A stretch of 10,453 nucleotides of DNA from an uncultured Candidatus Altimarinota bacterium. Its GTDB lineage: Bacteria; Patescibacteriota; Gracilibacteria; UBA4473. The DNA is taken from assembly GCA_938021445.1 (NCBI GenBank), contig CALIGR010000172.1:1-10453 (forward strand), in the 5' to 3' direction. Shown here one piece after another: positions 1,790 to 10,453 of the stretch (the stretch's first letter is position 1; each line of letters begins with the position of its first letter). The notes under the pieces are model-generated. The model saw nothing but the letters and a program-made list of their open reading frames with translations, searched no databases and had not been told where the DNA came from. A program made the position numbers and the translations under genes.

Positions 1790-1818
1790 TTGCGAGTTTT
1801 TGAAACCTTCCTTAGAAT
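1790..1818 (+). promoter_or_regulatory. Sigma70-type promoter of the gnd-zwf-pgl operon
   Basis: TTGCGA at 1790-1795 (4 of 6 to the -35 consensus) and TAGAAT at 1813-1818 (5 of 6 to the -10 consensus) are separated by exactly 17 bp. The predicted transcription start is near 1825, giving a leader of about ten bases before the gnd ATG at 1835. This placement argues against the in-frame TTG at 1790 and ATG at 1817 as start codons, because both lie inside the promoter. Confidence 0.55.
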
Positions 1819-1834
1819 GGAAACTGTAAAACAC

Positions 1835-3247
1835 ATGTCAGATAAATCACAGATCGGTCTCATCGGGTTGGCAGTAATGGGGCAAAACTTAGCACGAAAT
1901 TTAGCGCGAGCCCATAAAGTAACAGTCTATAACCGGACGACGGAAACCATGCAGGATTTTATAGGCGAGCATGGTTCTGAAAATCTAGCAGGAGAAGCAG
2001 AGCTTGAAGGCTTTGTAAACTCGCTCGAAAAACCAAGAAAAATTATCTTAATGGTTAAGGCGGGGCGAGCGGTGGATGCGGTAATTGGTTCACTCCTTCC
2101 ATTTTTGGATAAGGGAGACATTATCATTGATGGAGGGAATTCGCATTTCCCAGATACCATTAGACGAGAAAAAGAACTATCAGAAAAAGATATGAACTTC
2201 TTTGGTTGTGGGGTTAGTGGAGGAGAGGAAGGGGCACTAAACGGGCCGAGTATAATGCCGGGGGGCAGCACCAAAGTCTGGAAAGAGCTTGAGCCAATCT
2301 TGAAGAAAATCGCCGCGAAAGATTTTGAGGGGGAACCGTGTGTGACGTATATCGGGGAAAACGGAGCCGGTCACTACGTCAAAATGGTCCATAATGGAAT
2401 TGAGTACGCTGTCATGCAGATGATGGCAGAAGCTTATGACTTTTATAGATCAAACGGTCTTAGCGCTTCAGAAATTGGTAATATTTTTGAAAAATATAAT
2501 CAGGGTAAGCTGAAGTCTTTTCTCTTTGAGATTTCCGTCCCAATTTTAAGAAAAAAAGATGAGAAAGGCACGGATGAGTATTTGTTAGATCTGATTTTGG
2601 ACAAAGCGGGGCAGAAGGGCACAGGACGATGGACGGGGATTGAAGGACTAGAGCGGGGGATTGATATCTCGTGTATCCAACAAGCGGTTAATGCTCGTAT
2701 CGTCTCTAGTCGAAAAAATTACCGAGTTGAGTTAGATAAAAAGTATAAAAAGCCGTATGCCGATAAAACACTGCCCAAGGACGTGGTGAAAGAACTCGTT
2801 CCGGTCATAGAAAACGGACTCTATGCAGCCATGCTTATTGCCTACGCACAAGGCTTTGATCTACTCAGGCAAGCGGCAGAAGAGATGGAGTGGGATCTAA
2901 ACTATGCTGAAATTGCCCGGATCTGGCAGGGCGGATGTATCATCCGAGCCCAGATCCTCAAGACCCTGACCGAAGCGTTTAAAGAAGCGAATAACGCACC
3001 ATTGTGGGAGATTGAACAAATCGTTTCAGATCTGCAAGACAACTGGCTCGATCTTCGTGCAACCGTTTCACTGGGAGTCCAGGCTGGAACGCCTTTGTTT
3101 TGTCTTGGGGCCGCTTTAGCCAGTTTTGAAGCGATGAGTGACGCTCGTGGCTCGGCGAATTTTATCCAAGGACTAAGAGACTCATTTGGGGCTCATACTT
3201 ATAAACGGATAGATCAAGACGGTATATTTCATACTGAGTGGTCATAA
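1835..3247 (+). CDS. gnd: 6-phosphogluconate dehydrogenase, decarboxylating
   Basis: Oxidises and decarboxylates 6-phosphogluconate to ribulose-5-phosphate, the last step of the oxidative pentose phosphate branch, in the cytoplasm. The Rossmann motif Gly-Leu-Ala-Val-Met-Gly is at residues 11-16 and Asn-Arg-Thr at 33-35, the pattern of NADP-using enzymes. The substrate-binding signature (Ser-Gly-Gly-Glu-Glu-Gly, then Gly-Pro-Ser-Ile-Met-Pro-Gly-Gly) spans 128-144. The catalytic K183 and E190 fall at the same numbers as in classical enzymes. The C-terminal Phe-Gly-Ala-His-Thr-Tyr and Phe-His-x-x-Trp motifs are intact. From this ATG the protein is 470 aa, matching the long enterobacterial/eukaryotic type (about 468 aa). 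The frame stays open to a TTG at 1790, but that region holds the promoter. No Shine-Dalgarno is seen. It is first in an operon with zwf 13 bp downstream. Confidence 0.97.
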   Translation: MSDKSQIGLIGLAVMGQNLARNLARAHKVTVYNRTTETMQDFIGEHGSENLAGEAELEGFVNSLEKPRKIILMVKAGRAVDAVIGSLLPFLDKGDIIIDGGNSHFPDTIRREKELSEKDMNFFGCGVSGGEEGALNGPSIMPGGSTKVWKELEPILKKIAAKDFEGEPCVTYIGENGAGHYVKMVHNGIEYAVMQMMAEAYDFYRSNGLSASEIGNIFEKYNQGKLKSFLFEISVPILRKKDEKGTDEYLLDLILDKAGQKGTGRWTGIEGLERGIDISCIQQAVNARIVSSRKNYRVELDKKYKKPYADKTLPKDVVKELVPVIENGLYAAMLIAYAQGFDLLRQAAEEMEWDLNYAEIARIWQGGCIIRAQILKTLTEAFKEANNAPLWEIEQIVSDLQDNWLDLRATVSLGVQAGTPLFCLGAALASFEAMSDARGSANFIQGLRDSFGAHTYKRIDQDGIFHTEWS

Positions 3248-3260
3248 TGAGAAAATTATC

Positions 3261-4712
3261 ATGAAAAAAGCAGATTTTAATACTATTTTTCGGATTAGGG
3301 ACCCTTTTGTTTTTACTGTGTTTGGGGCTTCTGGGGATCTAGCACAGCTTAAAATTTTTCCAGCGCTTTTTGCACTCGCCGAGCAGAAACGTTTTCCTGA
3401 AAAATTAGCGATCATTGGGTATGCTCGTTCAAAAATAGAGACGGCTGAATTTAGAACTATTTTTGCTGACTCGGTGAAGAAATATTATCACGGAACCTGG
3501 GGAGCATATCAAGATGAAATACTAGAAGAGCTCCTCAGTTCAGTTCATTATTTTTCAGGGCAGTATGATCAAGTTGATGATTTCTCAGGCTACAAAAAAT
3601 TTATAGAAGTACTGGGGTTTGAGTCGAAAGAAACGGTTCATATTGCTTATTTTTCAGTGCCACCGTTTGTGGTAGAATCAATAACTTTAGGACTAGCAGA
3701 AGTATTTGAACCACAGGAGAATGATTTAAGATTGATTTTAGAGAAGCCTTTTGGAGAAGACGAAAAGAGTGCATCGGCTTTGTTTAACGTACTGCACAAA
3801 AACTATAAAAATCAGCAGCTCTATTTCTTGGATCACTATCTTGGGAAAAAAGCCGTGAGAAGCTTGATCCCATTGCGGCATATGAATCGGATCTTAAATA
3901 CGATGCTCAAAGGGAAAGAAATTGCGAGTATCCAGATATCCGCTCTTGAGCCAATGGGCGTGGGCGATCGAGTTGGGTATTTTGATGAAGTGGGGACGAT
4001 CAAAGATGTGGTGCAATCTCACTTACTTCAGATTTTAGCGATGACGACTATGTCGATCCCAGTCGACGCTTCCGCCGAAAGAGTCCAGGAAGAGCGAGCG
4101 GCAATACTTGAGGCGTTAGAGTTTCGTCCAGAGAAGAAAAATATCTCACTCGGGCAGTATGAAGCGTATAAATCGGAAGACCCAAAAGTAAGCAACTCTG
4201 ATACTGAAACTTTTGCAGCCGCAAAACTCTTTATTAATCGAGAGAGTTGGTACGATGTTCCAATTTTTCTTCGAACTGGAAAAAAACTGCACGAGAAGCA
4301 TACATATCTAGTAGTTGAGCTTAAGAAATTTAAGTTTCAAGGTGAAGACGAAGAACCTAACAGAGTGATTATCGAATTTTATCCAACTGAATCGATACAA
4401 ATTCGGTTACTCGATGAGGATGGGGCAACACTTCGTCATGGAGAAATTGCAGCAAGTGAGTCGATTGCGTGTTTTGGGGACTACTGTTTGCCGGAGCATG
4501 GTCTATTACTATTAGATGTTATACGAGGGGATAATCGGTACTTCTTGTCTCAATCGGAGATTATTGCCTCTTGGCGAATAACCGATCAAGTAATAAATTT
4601 TATAGCTTCTGAAAATCTAAAACCAGAAATATATAAAACTGGAACTGAAGGACCAAATTCTCAACATGACTTAATGGAGGGCACTAAATTTAAATGGTAT
4701 GACAATCACTAG
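3261..4712 (+). CDS. zwf: Glucose-6-phosphate 1-dehydrogenase
   Basis: Oxidises glucose-6-phosphate to 6-phosphogluconolactone, the entry step of the oxidative pentose phosphate branch, normally making NADPH. The 483-aa length is standard. Gly-Ala-Ser-Gly-Asp-Leu-Ala at residues 22-28 is the nucleotide-binding motif. Glu-Lys-Pro-Phe-Gly (161-165), Asp-His-Tyr-Leu-Gly-Lys (191-196) and H254 in Gln-Ser-His-Leu-Leu-Gln supply the expected substrate-binding and catalytic residues, and a Leu-Arg-Thr-Gly-Lys motif follows later. The flanks of the active-site signature diverge: the usual Arg-Ile before Asp-His is Phe-Leu, the Glu after the motif is Lys, and the usual Gly-Ala-Leu-Arg-Asp is Gly-Thr-Ile-Lys-Asp. 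All core catalytic residues remain, so it should be active. It lies 13 bp after gnd without a clear ribosome binding site, and its 3' end overlaps pgl, suggesting translational coupling. Confidence 0.96.
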   Translation: MKKADFNTIFRIRDPFVFTVFGASGDLAQLKIFPALFALAEQKRFPEKLAIIGYARSKIETAEFRTIFADSVKKYYHGTWGAYQDEILEELLSSVHYFSGQYDQVDDFSGYKKFIEVLGFESKETVHIAYFSVPPFVVESITLGLAEVFEPQENDLRLILEKPFGEDEKSASALFNVLHKNYKNQQLYFLDHYLGKKAVRSLIPLRHMNRILNTMLKGKEIASIQISALEPMGVGDRVGYFDEVGTIKDVVQSHLLQILAMTTMSIPVDASAERVQEERAAILEALEFRPEKKNISLGQYEAYKSEDPKVSNSDTETFAAAKLFINRESWYDVPIFLRTGKKLHEKHTYLVVELKKFKFQGEDEEPNRVIIEFYPTESIQIRLLDEDGATLRHGEIAASESIACFGDYCLPEHGLLLLDVIRGDNRYFLSQSEIIASWRITDQVINFIASENLKPEIYKTGTEGPNSQHDLMEGTKFKWYDNH

Positions 4713-5364
4713 CACACCCATGGCTGATATAAAAACAGTTAAGAACGAATCTGAGTTTTGGGACCAGTCGGTTCAAGTTTTTAAAACCTTGAAACCAAAT
4801 CGAATAGCCCTTAGTGGCGGAAGTTCAGCCGATATTATAGATCATCTAAAGAAAGCCAATTTTGATTTTGATAGTGTGCGTATTTTTCAGACAGACGAAC
4901 GTTTTGTCTTGAATGACGATGAAAACTCAAATACAAAATTATTACGGTCTAAGTTGGAAAATTCAAAATATCAGAATTGTTTTTTTCCTATATTAGAGAC
5001 CCCAGAAGCAAGTGTGGAGAAATATGAGGATCAGTTGATTGAAGACGATGCAGGTTTTTTGTTTGATATGACGGTTTTAGGTATCGGCCCAGATGGACAC
5101 ACGGCTTCTATTTTTCCCAATTCAAAACCCAATGAAGAAAAACTTGTAGACTTGACTGAAACTGAAGAGTTTGCGATTAAGAAAAGACTAACACTGACGT
5201 TTAACGCGCTGAAGAAATCTAAGCAAATAATAGTCTTAATGAAGGGCAAAAATAAGCGTGAAATTTTTGAGAAAATAACTGACTCGGAAACCGATCCTGA
5301 AAAATTTCCAGCCCGAACGCTCCTCGATTGGGACAACGTCACTATTCTTTTTGCGGATGTCTGA
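4699..5364 (+). CDS. pgl: 6-phosphogluconolactonase
   Basis: Hydrolyses 6-phosphogluconolactone to 6-phosphogluconate, linking Zwf and Gnd. The protein belongs to the glucosamine-6-phosphate isomerase/6PGL family: Ser-Gly-Gly-Ser-Ser at residues 39-43 (phosphate binding), Thr-Asp-Glu-Arg at 65-68, Ser-Asn at 77-78, and Gly-Ile-Gly-Pro-Asp-Gly-His-Thr-Ala-Ser at 128-137, with H134 as the likely catalytic histidine. The last motif and the operon with zwf and gnd favour 6PGL over NagB. At 221 aa it is slightly short for the DevB type. The start is uncertain: ATG 4699 overlaps zwf by 14 bases, while ATG 4720 would give 214 aa and no overlap. A GGAGG at 4676-4680 lies too far from either to decide. 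Its 3' end overlaps the next gene by 8 bases. Confidence 0.94.
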   Translation: MTITSTPMADIKTVKNESEFWDQSVQVFKTLKPNRIALSGGSSADIIDHLKKANFDFDSVRIFQTDERFVLNDDENSNTKLLRSKLENSKYQNCFFPILETPEASVEKYEDQLIEDDAGFLFDMTVLGIGPDGHTASIFPNSKPNEEKLVDLTETEEFAIKKRLTLTFNALKKSKQIIVLMKGKNKREIFEKITDSETDPEKFPARTLLDWDNVTILFADV

Positions 5365-6076: not shown

Positions 6077-7522
6077 CTAGGGGTTGTGTACCGCGTTGTA
6101 GATCTGGTTTCCGATCTGAAGCGCTCGTTCTTCGGTGTAAGCCGGGCAGAGGATTTGCGGGCCGATAGGAAGCTTGTCTTTACTAAAGCCAACGGGGAAA
6201 GAGATTCCACAGATTCCGGCTAAACTAGCGGGAATGGTAAAGGCGTCTTCAAGGTAAGCCAGAAGAGGATCTCCGTCATTTTTTCCAATTTTAAAAGCCG
6301 GAGTTGGCGCGGCTGGGCAAAGGATAGCGTCTACTTTTTCAAAAGCGTTATCAAAGTCTTGCTTAATAAGCGTTCTGACTTTTTGGGCTTTTCGGTAATA
6401 GGCGTCATAGTACCCAGCAGAAAGGGCGTAGGTCCCAATTAGGATTCTCCGTTTTACTTCATCACCCAGGCCTTCTTCTCTCGTACTGCTATAAATTTCT
6501 TCAAGAGATTCTTTTTCTGTTCCTAAGTGTCCAAACCGTATGCCGTCGTAGCGAGACATATTGGCAGAGATTTCAGAAGGGGCGATGATGTAGTAAGCCG
6601 AGATAGCGTACTTGGTATGGGGAAGTGAAATATCGACGACTTTCCCACCTAAGTTTTCAATGATCGCTTTTGTTGAGTCTATAATGCTTACAACTTCAGG
6701 ATTAATCCCATCGGTGAAGTACTCTTTTGGAATTCCAAAAGTCATCCCAGATATAGAATCCCCCAAGTTTTTTAAGTAATCGGGGACGGCTTGTTCTGGA
6801 GTTGTACTGTCTTTTGGGTCTTTTCCGGCGATGATTTGAAGCATTCTAGCACAGTCCTCGGGGGTTTTTGCAATAGGACCAACGGTATCAAGACTTGAGG
6901 CCATCGGCATACATCCCCAGCGCGAAACTCGTCCGTAGGAGACCTTGAGTCCACTGACCCCACAAAAGCTCGCTGGCTGACGAATAGAACCACCGGTATC
7001 GGTTCCAATTGACCCAGCACAAAAGTGAGCGGCTACACTTGCAGCAGAGCCTCCTGAACTCCCTCCTGGGACGCAAGTGGGATCGATTGGATTTTTGGTG
7101 ACTCCGAAAGCTGAAGACTCTGTACTTCCTCCCATAGTAAATTCATCCGTATTTACTTTTCCCAGTAAAACACATCCAGCGGATTCCAGTTTGTCCCAAA
7201 CAGTAGCATTGTAGGGAGGTGTGAAATTTTTAAGGATATTTGAGGCCGCGGTTGTGGTTATGCCTTTCGTACAAACCACGTCTTTGAGAGAAATCGGGAT
7301 TCCATCCAGATCAGATAACGCTTGGCCAGCCTTGATCCGGCTGTCGCTCGCATCAGCCATTTCTCGGGCTCGATCAAATGTGGTGGTGAGAAAAACATTG
7401 AGATCTTCATTTCTAGACTCAATTTCATCAATGTACGCCTCAGTCAGTTCACGAGAGGTGATTTCTTGAGATTGTAGTTTCGAAACCAGCTCAGATAAAG
7501 AGTATTCTATAAGTTTAGACAT
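6077..7522 (-). CDS. gatA: Asp-tRNA(Asn)/Glu-tRNA(Gln) amidotransferase subunit A
   Basis: GatA is the glutaminase subunit of the GatCAB complex. It releases ammonia from glutamine or asparagine, which GatB uses to convert misacylated Glu-tRNA(Gln) or Asp-tRNA(Asn) to the amide form. The protein is an amidase-signature enzyme with the Ser-cisSer-Lys triad visible at K80, S155 and S179, one residue offset from the numbering I recall for Staphylococcus aureus GatA. The Gly-Gly-Ser-Ser-Gly-Gly-Ser core is at 153-159 and a Tyr-Asp-Gly-Ile-Arg-Phe-Gly substrate-pocket motif follows later. The 481-aa length is typical. I chose ATG 7522 because it gives the usual Met-Ser-Lys-Leu start four bases after the gatC stop; the frame stays open 14 codons further, inside gatC. 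No Shine-Dalgarno precedes it, so coupling to gatC is likely. gatB must lie elsewhere. Confidence 0.96.
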   Translation of the reverse strand: MSKLIEYSLSELVSKLQSQEITSRELTEAYIDEIESRNEDLNVFLTTTFDRAREMADASDSRIKAGQALSDLDGIPISLKDVVCTKGITTTAASNILKNFTPPYNATVWDKLESAGCVLLGKVNTDEFTMGGSTESSAFGVTKNPIDPTCVPGGSSGGSAASVAAHFCAGSIGTDTGGSIRQPASFCGVSGLKVSYGRVSRWGCMPMASSLDTVGPIAKTPEDCARMLQIIAGKDPKDSTTPEQAVPDYLKNLGDSISGMTFGIPKEYFTDGINPEVVSIIDSTKAIIENLGGKVVDISLPHTKYAISAYYIIAPSEISANMSRYDGIRFGHLGTEKESLEEIYSSTREEGLGDEVKRRILIGTYALSAGYYDAYYRKAQKVRTLIKQDFDNAFEKVDAILCPAAPTPAFKIGKNDGDPLLAYLEDAFTIPASLAGICGISFPVGFSKDKLPIGPQILCPAYTEERALQIGNQIYNAVHNP

Positions 7523-7526
7523 TTTT

Positions 7527-7811
7527 TTACATAATATTAGGCAGTCGCACCATCCCTTCTTCAACCGTATGAGGGGTACACTCGAGGAGTTCTTTTTCTA
7601 TTTTAGAAGGGACAATGACATCCGGCCGGGTCACACTTTCAAGTCCGGTGACTTGGGAGGTCTCAATCACATCATTAGTATTCACTTCTTCTAGATCTTT
7701 AAAAAAGTCCAGGATGTTACTGAGTTCTGATGCATACTGTTCTAGTTTTTCATCGGTTACCTGTATTCTGGCGAGTTTGGCTATGTGTCGGACTTCGTCT
7801 TGAGTGAGCAT
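7527..7811 (-). CDS. gatC: Asp-tRNA(Asn)/Glu-tRNA(Gln) amidotransferase subunit C
   Basis: GatC is the small stabilising subunit that wraps around GatA and GatB in the amidotransferase. The 94-aa length is typical. Family features are visible: an N-terminal His-Ile-Ala-Lys-Leu-Ala-Arg helix segment, Leu-Ser-Asn-Ile-Leu-Asp-Phe-Phe, Leu-Glu-Glu-Val-Asn-Thr, a central Thr-Arg-Pro-Asp (usually Arg-x-Asp), and a C-terminal Val-Arg-Leu-Pro-Asn-Ile. It is the first gene of the gatC-gatA pair. The ATG at 7811 has a -10 box seven bases upstream, so the message is probably leaderless. Confidence 0.93.
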   Translation of the reverse strand: MLTQDEVRHIAKLARIQVTDEKLEQYASELSNILDFFKDLEEVNTNDVIETSQVTGLESVTRPDVIVPSKIEKELLECTPHTVEEGMVRLPNIM

Positions 7812-7818
7812 TACGGTA

Positions 7819-7846
7819 ATGATAAAAATTTGGGGAATAGAGGCAA
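7819..7846 (-). promoter_or_regulatory. Predicted gatCA promoter, leaderless
   Basis: On the minus strand, TTGCCT (7846-7841, 4 of 6 to the -35 consensus) and TATCAT (7824-7819, 5 of 6 to the -10 consensus) are 16 bp apart. Seven bases separate the -10 from the gatC ATG, placing transcription start at about the start codon. Confidence 0.45.
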
Positions 7847-7852
7847 AGATGT

Positions 7853-7880
7853 TTGCAAATAATTTAAAATATTTTATTTT
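7853..7880 (+). promoter_or_regulatory. Predicted promoter of the RelA/SpoT-like gene
   Basis: TTGCAA (7853-7858) and TATTTT (7875-7880), each 4 of 6 to consensus, are 16 bp apart in a very AT-rich stretch and end seven bases before the ATG at 7888. The arrangement mirrors the divergent gatC promoter, with the two -35 boxes only six bases apart. TAAAAT at 7865-7870 is an alternative -10. The AT-rich background makes chance matches likely. Confidence 0.3.
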
Positions 7881-7887
7881 AAAGAAA

Positions 7888-9783
7888 ATGAAATCTATCT
7901 ATCGATATTCTACAATTGCAGATACAAGATGCTGTTTTAGGTTTAGTAGAAAAGATATCGATCGTTTTGGTGAAGACGTACAAGTCAGTTTCCCAGAGGA
8001 AGTATATGACTTAGTCGGCTTGGTAAATAGTGCACATAAAGAATATCAAAAAAAATTTCCTTATCTTATTTCTAGACTAGATCTCTATCGTTTTTTCCCT
8101 TTTTTGCTGAAAGATAAAGATATTCATTCAGCTGATTTAGACGGTGCAAGTAAGGTTTTTAATGAAAACAATTTAACTCAACTAGTTAGAAACCGAACCA
8201 GCTGGTTAGACATTAATGATCGCACAGAGACAGAAGCCTTAAAAGAAAAAGTTAAGTATGTCAAAGATGTGCTTCTCAGATCGGTAGATTTTTTGAAGGT
8301 AGAACTTGAGTTTTCCCTCCCTAGAGGTGTCGCAAGCGAGATCGACAGGATTTCTAGTATGCAAAATCTGCTTGATTTTATATTCAAAGCTCAAGGCTTA
8401 AAAACGTCTCCTTATGGACCGGTTATCTGCGGGTTGCTGAAAGTGGCGGATGTTTTTATCGAGATGGATAATCAATCCAGTGAATTAGAAGATTTGAGAG
8501 GCAGGACTACTGAACTGGAAAATGATCTGAAAGCTCTTTTATCAGCACAGGGTGAAGAGTATAAAGCAATGGATTTTACAAACCCCGTTACCCAGACTGG
8601 CGCTATACAGATGACCGGTTCTGAAGCTGGTTCTTTTCGGGCCAGAGAAATCCATTTCAATGCCAAATCGGAACACAGCACAGCCAGCAAGATGCTCAGA
8701 AAGGTTAGAGCTCTAGCATCAACGGTGGTAAGCGATGGAGTCCAAATGCGAGTCATACTTCCAGACGATGAGTCTGCGGACAACAGAGAGGCTCGGATAC
8801 AGCAGTTTTTTGAGTCATTTCCCGGATATTACTTTCAGCTCGATGATGGCAATGCTAACTCAGCTAAGGATCCAAATAGAAAAGAAATTAAATTTGATGG
8901 TTTTAAGCTCGAACCAGCGGAAGTGATAGATGACCTAGACTCAATTGATCCAAGCCGTTTCAATATAGAAGTTCAGCTGGTGACCGAAAAAGCATACTTC
9001 AGAAATGAGAGTGGCATCCGGAATCATACGGTTTACCGAGCGGTGCAAAACTTTCAGGTACTGGCCCGTTTATTTGGATCTATTGGCAAAGTGCGCTTTG
9101 AAAAAAAACTAGACCAACTAGCCGCTCAAGAATTTAAAGACACCAATGGTAATCCGTACCATCTAAATCGAGAAACACTCGAAGATTTATTTTCCAAACA
9201 CTTTTATTTAAACAATCAAACAAACCGTTATCACTGGTTTGAGTATGACTTCAGAACGAATGGGATTGGAATATTTAGTGAAGAAGATCAAGAAAAAAGA
9301 AATGAAGGAACCATCGATGCGATCGTTAACCTAGCTCACGAGTATAAACCTATGAATCATTGTGATCTAGCAGATACGAGTCCTGCTGAGTGGAAAACAA
9401 TCATTGAAACAAATAATTTTCCGGATAATGCTAAATGGAGAAGTGTTCACTATCAAACTCATGCAACTCGATTTTTAGATACAATTCCGGGAATTCCTGG
9501 TTTTATAAAAGCCTGCTTAGAAATTCAAGTTAAAGCGACTCAGCGACTTTATTTTAGAATGCCTAAGTCAGTAAAAAATGTAGAACTGAGAACTTGGAGG
9601 TATCTTTTCAGAGAAAAATCATTTCCAAGTTGGTGCTCAAAGTCAGAAAGAAGGAATATCACGGCTTACTTAGCAGACTTTGAAGGTGAAATTTTTAAAG
9701 GGTTAAGCAATCCCTTCCAGTACTTTCTCCCGATGATCACGGAAGAAACCTCGGGGCAGGTTGGGAAGGCACTAGAAGGATAA
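7888..9783 (+). CDS. Large protein with RelA/SpoT-like nucleotidyltransferase motifs
   Basis: A 631-aa soluble protein not recognised as a named family. Its middle matches RelA/SpoT (p)ppGpp-synthetase motifs as I recall them from Rel: K260, S264 and K268-M269 at Rel spacing; D283 with R288, like the Asp-x4-Arg of the synthetase core; and I360 to R384, matching Ile-Glu-x-Gln, Thr, Glu, Gly, His and Tyr-Lys/Arg at every step without gaps. The tyrosine/histidine G-loop expected between these blocks is not recognisable. A second partial set follows: P512, W517-x-S519-V-H521 and E545-I-Q547. No HD hydrolase, ACT or TGS domain, signal peptide or membrane segment is seen; residues 192-218 may form a short coiled coil. 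The start is uncertain: ATG 7888 suits the promoter, ATG 7849 follows an AGAGG, and the frame opens at GTG 7804. Nucleotide transfer activity is inference. Confidence 0.6.
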   Translation: MKSIYRYSTIADTRCCFRFSRKDIDRFGEDVQVSFPEEVYDLVGLVNSAHKEYQKKFPYLISRLDLYRFFPFLLKDKDIHSADLDGASKVFNENNLTQLVRNRTSWLDINDRTETEALKEKVKYVKDVLLRSVDFLKVELEFSLPRGVASEIDRISSMQNLLDFIFKAQGLKTSPYGPVICGLLKVADVFIEMDNQSSELEDLRGRTTELENDLKALLSAQGEEYKAMDFTNPVTQTGAIQMTGSEAGSFRAREIHFNAKSEHSTASKMLRKVRALASTVVSDGVQMRVILPDDESADNREARIQQFFESFPGYYFQLDDGNANSAKDPNRKEIKFDGFKLEPAEVIDDLDSIDPSRFNIEVQLVTEKAYFRNESGIRNHTVYRAVQNFQVLARLFGSIGKVRFEKKLDQLAAQEFKDTNGNPYHLNRETLEDLFSKHFYLNNQTNRYHWFEYDFRTNGIGIFSEEDQEKRNEGTIDAIVNLAHEYKPMNHCDLADTSPAEWKTIIETNNFPDNAKWRSVHYQTHATRFLDTIPGIPGFIKACLEIQVKATQRLYFRMPKSVKNVELRTWRYLFREKSFPSWCSKSERRNITAYLADFEGEIFKGLSNPFQYFLPMITEETSGQVGKALEG

Positions 9784-9810
9784 AAAAAGTCCCCGGTTTA
9801 CCCGCCGGGG
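9782..9810 (-). terminator. Strong intrinsic terminator reading leftwards
   Basis: CCCCGG (9791-9796) and CCGGGG (9805-9810) form a GC-rich 6-bp stem with an 8-nt loop. Read on the minus strand the stem is followed by AC and seven T (9788 to 9782), a textbook Rho-independent terminator for transcripts arriving from the right. On the plus strand no T-run follows, so it is not an obvious terminator for the RelA/SpoT-like gene, whose stop codon overlaps the A-run. Confidence 0.65.
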
Positions 9811-9901
9811 TCGGGGTTAAGGATTATTTAGTGACGAGAGTTTACTGCTTCCTAGCTAGTTGTTAGCCTTGCAGCAAAAGGGTTTACGTTTTTGAGGGGT
9901 G

Positions 9902-9907
9902 TAAAAT
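9902..9907 (+). promoter_or_regulatory. -10 box of the transposase gene
   Basis: TAAAAT (5 of 6 to consensus) ends six bases before the transposase ATG, the same spacing seen at the HAD-like gene, implying a leaderless transcript. No clear -35 box lies at 15-18 bp. Confidence 0.35.
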
Positions 9908-9913
9908 AGAGTT

Positions 9914-10453
9914 ATGATAAACCGTTATGCCAGTAAGTATGTGGAGATGCAGATCAAAGTACTAGAGAGTATAAAACGTAAACAGCTGAAGAAAAAAGAA
10001 GGAGCTCATCGCTTGGGAGTGAGTCGAGTGACGCTAGATAAATGGCTCTATCGTTATAATCGTTTTGGTGTGACTGGGTTAGAGCCCCCAAAACGTAAGA
10101 GGTGTGCAATGGCTCATAACCGAACCGCTAGAGAGGTGGAAGACGAAGTGATTGAGCTAGCGGAGGAATACTGGTTCGATGGAGTAGAGACACTCTGTGA
10201 TAGACTTTGGGAAAAATCTCGGGTAACTCTGCACCCAACGACGATCTACCGTATCCTGAAGCGAAGAGGTGCTCGATATGACCATAAATGGTCAGGCACC
10301 AGGAAACGAACGAAGAAGCAGCTGTATTGTCACGGACAAGTAGGGCAAGAACTCCAGGTAGATACCAAGTACCCGTTTGGGTACAAACAAGGGAAAGTGA
10401 TCTACACAGCGATAGACGATGCCAGCCGATGGAGTTATGCCAAAGCCTACACG
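9914..10453 (+). CDS. IS481-type DDE transposase, 3' end beyond window
   Basis: The first 180 residues of a transposase, still open at the window edge. Residues 8-60 form a helix-turn-helix region (Glu-Gly-Ala-His-Arg-Leu-Gly-Val-Ser at 29-37, then Thr-Leu-Asp-Lys-Trp-Leu), which binds the element's ends. Residues 71-120 look like a second winged-helix segment ending in Thr-Thr-Ile-Tyr-Arg-Ile-Leu-Lys. The retroviral-integrase-type catalytic core starts near 146: D150 in Gln-Val-Asp-Thr-Lys-Tyr and D168 in Ala-Ile-Asp-Asp-Ala-Ser-Arg are the first two acids of the DDE triad; the glutamate would lie beyond the edge. No frameshift or stop interrupts the visible part, so it may be intact. IS3-group OrfB proteins share the core, but the fused N-terminal HTH in one frame favours IS481. 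Confidence 0.85.
   Translation, partial: MINRYASKYVEMQIKVLESIKRKQLKKKEGAHRLGVSRVTLDKWLYRYNRFGVTGLEPPKRKRCAMAHNRTAREVEDEVIELAEEYWFDGVETLCDRLWEKSRVTLHPTTIYRILKRRGARYDHKWSGTRKRTKKQLYCHGQVGQELQVDTKYPFGYKQGKVIYTAIDDASRWSYAKAYT

Follow-up and report, generated by a model that had tools for sequence, protein, structure and literature searches.

A divergent RelA/SpoT-type synthetase homologue at a variable place beside gatC in an uncultured Gracilibacteria bacterium

Genes at the locus

Here we report an RSH-like gene (a homologue of RelA/SpoT-type synthetases) that lies divergently beside gatC in the genome of an uncultured Candidatus Altimarinota bacterium. The window, i.e. the whole stretch of DNA analysed, comprises 10,453 nt of contig CALIGR010000172.1 (assembly GCA_938021445.1). 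Residues of the window protein are counted from position 7804 (P0001, 659 aa); subtracting 28 gives the numbering of a 631-aa form. Four sets of sequences were used for comparison: A1 (the close family), A2 (a profile of eight relatives), A4 (seven TIGR04552-type proteins, five of them above the TIGR04552 cut-off and the other two from genomes outside that scoring) and A5 (16 sequences with 18% mean column identity, namely the window segment, seven gatC-locus or close relatives and eight other relatives). The features of the locus are as follows.

6077..7564, minus strand: gatA, downstream of gatC (TIGR00132 above cut-off)
7527..7811, minus strand: gatC, the divergent neighbour and conserved locus marker (TIGR00135 above cut-off)
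7804..9783, plus strand: whole open frame of the RSH-like gene, 659 aa from GTG 7804
8221..8559, plus strand: N-terminal helical part in common with TIGR04552, P0001 residues about 140-252 (hhalign of A1 against A4)
8665..9042, plus strand: RelA_SpoT synthetase-like nucleotidyltransferase domain, P0001 residues 288-413 (PF04607, Foldseek, VIA-align)
8665..8700, plus strand: donor triphosphate motif K288-x3-S292-x3-K296-x2-R299, equivalent to FaRel2 K66, S70, K74 and R77
8734..8751, plus strand: metal-site D311 with R316, equivalent to FaRel2 D90 and R95 (Asp in 16/16, Arg in 10/16 A5 sequences)
8857..8901, plus strand: altered G-loop region N352 to G366 (N-SAKDPN-R359), where Rel has NGYxSLH; register uncertain
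8965..9039, plus strand: E-x-Q strand and E-x-G-x3-H-x2-Y helix motif (E389, E402, G404, H408, Y411)
9127..9783, plus strand: C-terminal part of close relatives only, with a RYHWFEYDFRTNG block and two W-x2-I-x4-FPD-like helical units (A1)

The protein-database prediction for the RSH-like frame starts at ATG 7849 and has 644 aa. We favour ATG 7888 as the start that best fits the homologues, which would give 631 aa, because of the lengths of the homologues (564 aa in P0003, 587 aa in P0004 and 577 aa in P0006; P0005, with 444 aa, begins inside the frame) and because the divergent gatC starts at 7811. A preliminary description of this DNA had placed two RelA/SpoT-like motif blocks in the frame, and its coordinates are exact in the translation of 7804-9783 (K288 begins at nt 8665, I388 at nt 8965, and R412 ends at 9039); its residues K260, K268, R288, E361 and Q363 were numbered from ATG 7888, i.e. 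with an offset of 28. Block one reads K288-SEH-S292-TAS-K296-M297, then D311-GVQM-R316, and block two I388-E389-V-Q391-LV-T394-EKAYFRN-E402-S-G404-IRN-H408-TV-Y411-R412.

Directly after the RSH-like gene lies a terminator-like stem with a T run (9810-9791, minus strand); three such sites were found in 7700-10000, against 1.4 expected. The next gene is transposase-like and runs from 9914 off the contig end (feature 9791-10453), with HTH_32 above its cut-off and rve, at 13.3 bits, below. At 1790-5364 the window carries gnd, zwf and pgl side by side, the oxidative branch of the pentose phosphate pathway in a genome of CPR type (above cut-off for gnd and pgl; zwf 367.2 bits vs 400.6), and at 787-1716 on the minus strand a DUF2608 protein of unknown function (25.9 bits, cut-off 22.6). 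Rfam and tRNA searches of the window were both empty. The short gaps flanking the RSH-like gene contain no ATG-started ORF of 25 or more residues wholly inside them, so no partner antitoxin is seen there.

Occurrence in related genomes

The locus was surveyed through the open reading frames of the window and of 18 further regions. The gatC gene is present in 19 of the 20 family genomes, and an RSH-like gene stands divergently beside it in five of these 19: the window's own genome (G000), G016, G019, G009 and, with weaker support, G014. Family-wide the gene was seen in 5/20 genomes, a count that copies as divergent as that of G014 would escape at the profile stage. The G014 copy was missed by the A2 HMM and is likewise without an NCBIfam match; it was included because of weak matches by hhalign (E 0.003, probability 10 with A2; E 2.2e-4, probability 45 with A4) and PF04607 (12.7 bits, E 0.16), its place beside gatC and its motif. 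A loose K-K-D-E-H scan found the pattern, among gatC-side frames, in those five only; seven chance occurrences lie in other frames elsewhere in the 19 regions. At all five loci the GC content of the RSH-like gene is 5.0 to 9.7 points below that of gatA.

The following gene is adenylyltransferase-like in G016, G019, G009 and G014 (TIGR00125 above cut-off for the G019 copy). In the three g10 genomes the adenylyltransferase-like gene is in turn followed by mutL, a name given by eye; by tblastn the G016 mutL gene matches both others. A search of genome contigs gave one locus, L002, which is identical to that of G016. In the 24 extra-family loci (of 26; 3-4 kb each, with some places included twice) no match to gatC, gatA, the adenylyltransferase, mutL or carA was found. 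G007 has a 198-aa ORF without a Pfam match at the gatC-side place. Near gatC in another family member, G005 (L105, 825-2180, minus strand), lies a 451-aa frame whose C-terminal end looks RAP or Vsr-type nuclease-like by eye. The G009 copy (L013, 568-2643) has an extra N-terminal part that looks Nudix hydrolase-like by eye (PGGK...EISEET) and is weakly matched by Pfam NUDIX (12.3 bits, E 0.18), so that this remains a suggestion.

Separate Rel-type frames of 674-735 aa (PF04607 140-141 bits) were found in G009, G016 and G019. In the window's assembly, which is 75% complete, PF04607 matches only the window protein and one other, an open frame of 1115 aa in the genome (L069, G000:C192; ORF 1-2556 of the locus, minus strand). 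This second RSH protein has a strong HD_4 match (134.3 bits), a weak ACT_4 match (15.9 bits), several C-terminal hydrophobic helices by eye and a degenerate RelA_SpoT domain (38.8 bits) without profile positions 1-21. At 11 or more further places a partial PF04607 match lies in a frame of 921-1156 aa.

Relationship to RSH synthetases

PF04607 is the sole Pfam match of the window protein (residues 288-413, E 1.2e-4) and scores 22.8 bits, under the cut-off of 27. TIGR04552 and TIGR04562 both match at E 1.5e-7 and stay below their cut-offs (31.1 vs 125 bits and 30.9 vs 140 bits). The protein database holds four relatives beyond the window's own entry, at 27-36% identity, and repeating the search with an alignment as query added none to these five entries. 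PF04607 matches at the equivalent place in P0003 and P0006, below cut-off, and gives no match in P0004 and P0005. Two divergent relatives from the same family as the window genome, L006 and L013 (the latter at the same gatC locus), score 21.8 bits, below the cut-off, and 31 bits, above it.

The A2 profile was searched against 379 genomes of the phylum and matched 14 places in 12 genomes, all of one class. Eight of the 13 places outside the window are Rel-type synthetase domains (PF04607 117 to 133.5 bits, frames of 656-748 aa), and the remaining five lie in genomes outside the PF04607 search set. With all divergent kinds counted, the A1 profile matches 20 of 353 genomes of the class; the window protein alone as query matched two of 99 relatives, G000 itself and G016. 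Further divergent A1 matches include L011, L015, L016 and L019-L023 (families f10, f14 and f22), seven of these eight with an in-frame TGA; L011, L016 and L019 carry the E-x-G-x3-H-x2-Y motif. A single-sequence phmmer search of PDB sequences gave nothing relevant (one irrelevant match at E 1).

Structure models were built on six sequences, and the domain model reached pLDDT 70.1 (the other four models 42-60) and pTM 0.64. The preliminary description had proposed a structure model and Foldseek as a check of its reading, and in that comparison ranks 1-23 of the domain model were all RSH enzymes, with loose superpositions (TM by target 0.14-0.50, rmsd 9-14). The best structural matches were the small alarmone synthetases RelP and RelQ (Foldseek, VIA-align), and the domain is thus modelled with the synthetase nucleotidyltransferase fold. 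The full-length model gave no Foldseek match at E <= 0.001; by VIA-align, GrpB (rank 4) and CdnC (rank 10) are mixed into its list. Searched against viral models, it had no Foldseek match at E <= 0.001 and no RSH-named row among the best 50.

The window protein almost certainly belongs to the RSH synthetase homologues. The earlier reading as a RelA/SpoT-like nucleotidyltransferase is supported by the near-cut-off PF04607 match, by the Rel domains that the relatives' profile finds and by the RSH enzymes found with Foldseek. As judged from sequence comparison, the protein represents a divergent, largely undescribed branch of RSH synthetases related to TIGR04552.

N- and C-terminal parts

The preliminary description held that the protein lacks HD, TGS and ACT domains and that everything outside the motif blocks resembles nothing known. 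The former was confirmed, PF04607 being the only Pfam match up to E 10; the latter needs correction for the N-terminal part. An hhalign comparison of A1 with A4 (probability 97.0, E 1.1e-10) extends over 264 columns and P0001 residues 140-435, from which it follows that the N-terminal helical part is common to the TIGR04552 family; the order of an N-terminal part and a nucleotidyltransferase domain is that of TIGR04552 and TIGR04562. The C-terminal part, about 220 residues beginning near residue 442, occurs in close relatives only (A1) and is predicted to be ordered and mostly helical (mean pLDDT per ten residues 65-92, model residues 381-600). An apparent second Rel-like block in this part (WRSVHYQTH...LEIQV, residues about 547-580) was dismissed as a coincidence because the homologues do not conserve it.

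Catalytic core and base-recognition residues

The pair of triphosphate lysines, the metal Asp and the Glu of E-x-Q are all present in the window protein. Only five columns of A5 are invariant (16/16 sequences), K288, K296, D311, E389 and H408, and these are the Rel catalytic positions. The K-K spacing is 8 in every row, and the E-H spacing is 19 in 9/16 rows (7/8 in the window's group) and 17, 18 or 21 in the others. Four Rel proteins chosen from the same class all have R-x-K-x3-S-x3-K with equal K-K spacing. They also have G, H and Y at E+15, E+19 and E+22 (4/4) and E at E+13 (2/4), as does the window protein at all four places, and block two aligns with Rel free of gaps, as had been claimed. 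Among the five residues singled out earlier as an active site, K288, K296 and E389 are invariant in the 16 relatives, and R316 and Q391 vary; D311 and H408 are the better markers.

In the available text on FaRel2, K66, S70, K74 and R77 bind the ATP triphosphate, D90 is a metal ligand, R64 and R95 stack on the adenine, E145 and Q147 contact it, and Y128 of the G-loop serves the acceptor base (PMC11782079). The window protein retains K288, S292, K296, R299, D311, R316, E389 and Q391 as equivalents of FaRel2 residues; across the 16 rows of A5 the equivalents of S70, R77, R95 and Q147 are variable. The Arg of R-x-K, which stacks the donor adenine, is missing, the equivalent of R64 being N286. This place is non-Arg in 8/8 close or gatC-locus rows and Arg in 7/8 other relatives (A5).

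The absence of an evident G-loop Tyr, noted in the preliminary description, was borne out: close relatives have Arg at the aligned place, in a register that is uncertain and set by alignment only. N352 is invariant in 8/8 A2 rows, and R359, seven residues further, is found in 5/5 and 6/6 close relatives in two alignments and is lost in the more divergent L006 and L013 (A2). The G014 copy has a Tyr in the G-loop region. The seven TIGR04552-type proteins differ from the window protein in retaining both the R-x-K Arg and the Tyr of the G-loop (N-x2-SS-x2-Y, 7/7). With the donor Arg replaced, the G-loop Tyr exchanged for Arg and the catalytic core kept, the protein is therefore predicted to have retained the phosphate and metal chemistry and to have changed base recognition on both the donor and the acceptor side.

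Variability of the gene

Between the three g10 species the RSH-like proteins are 24, 24 and 27% identical, whereas their neighbours are far more alike (GatA 89-93%, GatC 85-87%, MutL C-terminus 73-80%, adenylyltransferase 53-62%). Between G016 and the window the values are 36% for the RSH-like protein and 69% for GatA. In the RSH-like tree (20 rows, G014 left out) G016 groups with the window and P0003-P0006 (99/99). A single clade of the three g10 copies was rejected (p-AU 1.9e-7), while their GatA sequences do form a clade (100/99). G009 and G019, whose copies are the most divergent in g10, form long branches flagged by the program, and for this reason the tree does not distinguish allele swapping from very fast divergence; either allele replacement or extreme divergence fits the gatC-side gene. 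In its variability, patchy occurrence and low GC it resembles conflict genes.

Discussion

To our knowledge, TIGR04552 and TIGR04562 are NCBIfam subfamilies whose model names carry no function. They resemble the window protein in the N-terminal helical region, the nucleotidyltransferase domain and the K-8-K, D and E-x-Q motifs; the seven aligned TIGR04552-type proteins are without its long C-terminal part. RelQ (SAS1) and RelP (SAS2) have the same synthetase fold but consist of about 200 residues and make (p)ppGpp, whereas the window protein carries large additional parts and differs in its base-binding residues. Long RSH proteins (Rel, RelA, SpoT) share the PF04607 domain and the spacing of catalytic residues and differ in their HD, TGS or ACT domains. 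The toxSAS and CapRel proteins pyrophosphorylate the tRNA CCA end or synthesise (pp)pApp, are toxic and are neutralised by an antitoxin domain or partner. In the accessible part of its description, CapRel, a fused toxSAS and phage-defence tRNA pyrophosphokinase, has a fused C-terminal regulator and a phage trigger and differs from the window protein in keeping the G-loop Tyr, whose change abolishes defence (PMC9712102).

The window protein is probably competent in catalysis. We see an even chance that it is an RSH-type pyrophosphokinase with an altered substrate, and possibly a CapRel-like defence effector, where activity, substrate, regulation and conflict role are all inferred. Most likely it would transfer pyrophosphate from a nucleoside triphosphate to a 3' hydroxyl through the conserved Lys/Lys/Asp/Glu site. 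GDP or GTP in the usual mode is an unlikely acceptor because the donor Arg and the acceptor G-loop Tyr are both changed; the tRNA 3' end or another nucleotide is plausible, and the arguments for and against an acceptor other than GDP or GTP are balanced. The helical N- and C-terminal parts may recognise a target or restrain the enzyme until a trigger arrives, like the fused C-terminal domain of CapRel.

Strong variation at a constant chromosomal position suggests that the gene serves in conflict with phages or competitors, a role that we consider possible but somewhat doubtful; routine starvation signalling would then be left to the Rel-type protein in the relatives. A second, different task is likely because Rel-type frames coexist with the gene in G009, G016 and G019. 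Searches for known defence genes gave no match: PADLOC returned no family for either P0001 or P0004 up to E 1, and the window protein does not fall under a defence model. PHROGs gave three weak matches of P0001, the best at E 0.021 and all to families without a known function, but none of P0004. In viral contigs, none of 74 pattern matches of the A1 profile was confirmed, and tblastn of phage records found no match to the RSH-like protein. A broader proposal, that the gatC-side slot is hypervariable and holds repeatedly swapped RSH-type pyrophosphokinases which lack the base-recognition elements of Rel, use a new substrate and act as CPR conflict effectors, is speculative and on balance unlikely.

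The protein could instead be a housekeeping alarmone synthetase, with (p)ppGpp, pGpp or (p)ppApp as its signal product and the helical domains as its control, its divergence being that of a fast-evolving small-genome lineage. The conserved catalytic core, RelP and RelQ as best fold matches and the G-loop Tyr retained by the related TIGR04552-type group (7/7) agree with this. However, the genes next to the RSH-like gene show no such divergence in the same genomes, few family genomes yielded a copy (copies like that of G014 escaping the profile), three of these genomes already have Rel-type frames, and the base-recognition residues are changed; we consider a housekeeping synthetase improbable.

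Pseudoenzymes frequently lose both the metal Asp and the Glu. That the window protein keeps both, and that D311, E389, K288, K296 and H408 are invariant in 16/16 sequences sharing little else, speaks against a catalytically dead descendant acting as a nucleotide- or RNA-binding regulator, to which we also assign a low probability. Loss of the equivalents of R64 and of the G-loop Tyr in the window's group fits lost catalysis equally well and weighs against the main reading; the equivalents of Q391 and R316 are variable as well, and in the available texts G-loop Tyr changes inactivate or compromise CapRel and FaRel2 (PMC9712102, PMC11782079). A chance resemblance of motifs in an unrelated helical protein, which the sub-threshold single-sequence PF04607 score (22.8 vs 27 bits), the phmmer result and the loose motif in seven other frames of the 19 regions might suggest, is strongly disfavoured and highly improbable because independent homologues, forward and reverse profile searches and two structure models all point the same way.

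In the literature searched, as far as the texts were available, TIGR04552 appears only in a table of mutated Bdellovibrio genes, TIGR04562 has no mention, and nothing was found on Gracilibacteria with RelA_SpoT or ppGpp. The accessible parts of the toxSAS literature (including PMC11559606, PMC12691689, PMC9712102 and PMC11782079) and of that on alarmones and the candidate phyla radiation contain nothing on this RSH-like family, a variant apparently not described in the literature searched.

Reading the window protein as an RSH-type pyrophosphokinase with an altered substrate, we would see a tiny-genome CPR branch in which the phosphate-transfer core is frozen and the base-reading parts have changed, in a gene that differs strongly between species with about 90% identity in the neighbouring GatA. 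RSH enzymes were regarded as makers of (p)ppGpp until toxSAS enzymes revealed that this fold can also modify tRNA and fight phages. If active, the window protein would widen the chemistry of the RSH family further and may provide a testable conflict gene in very small genomes.
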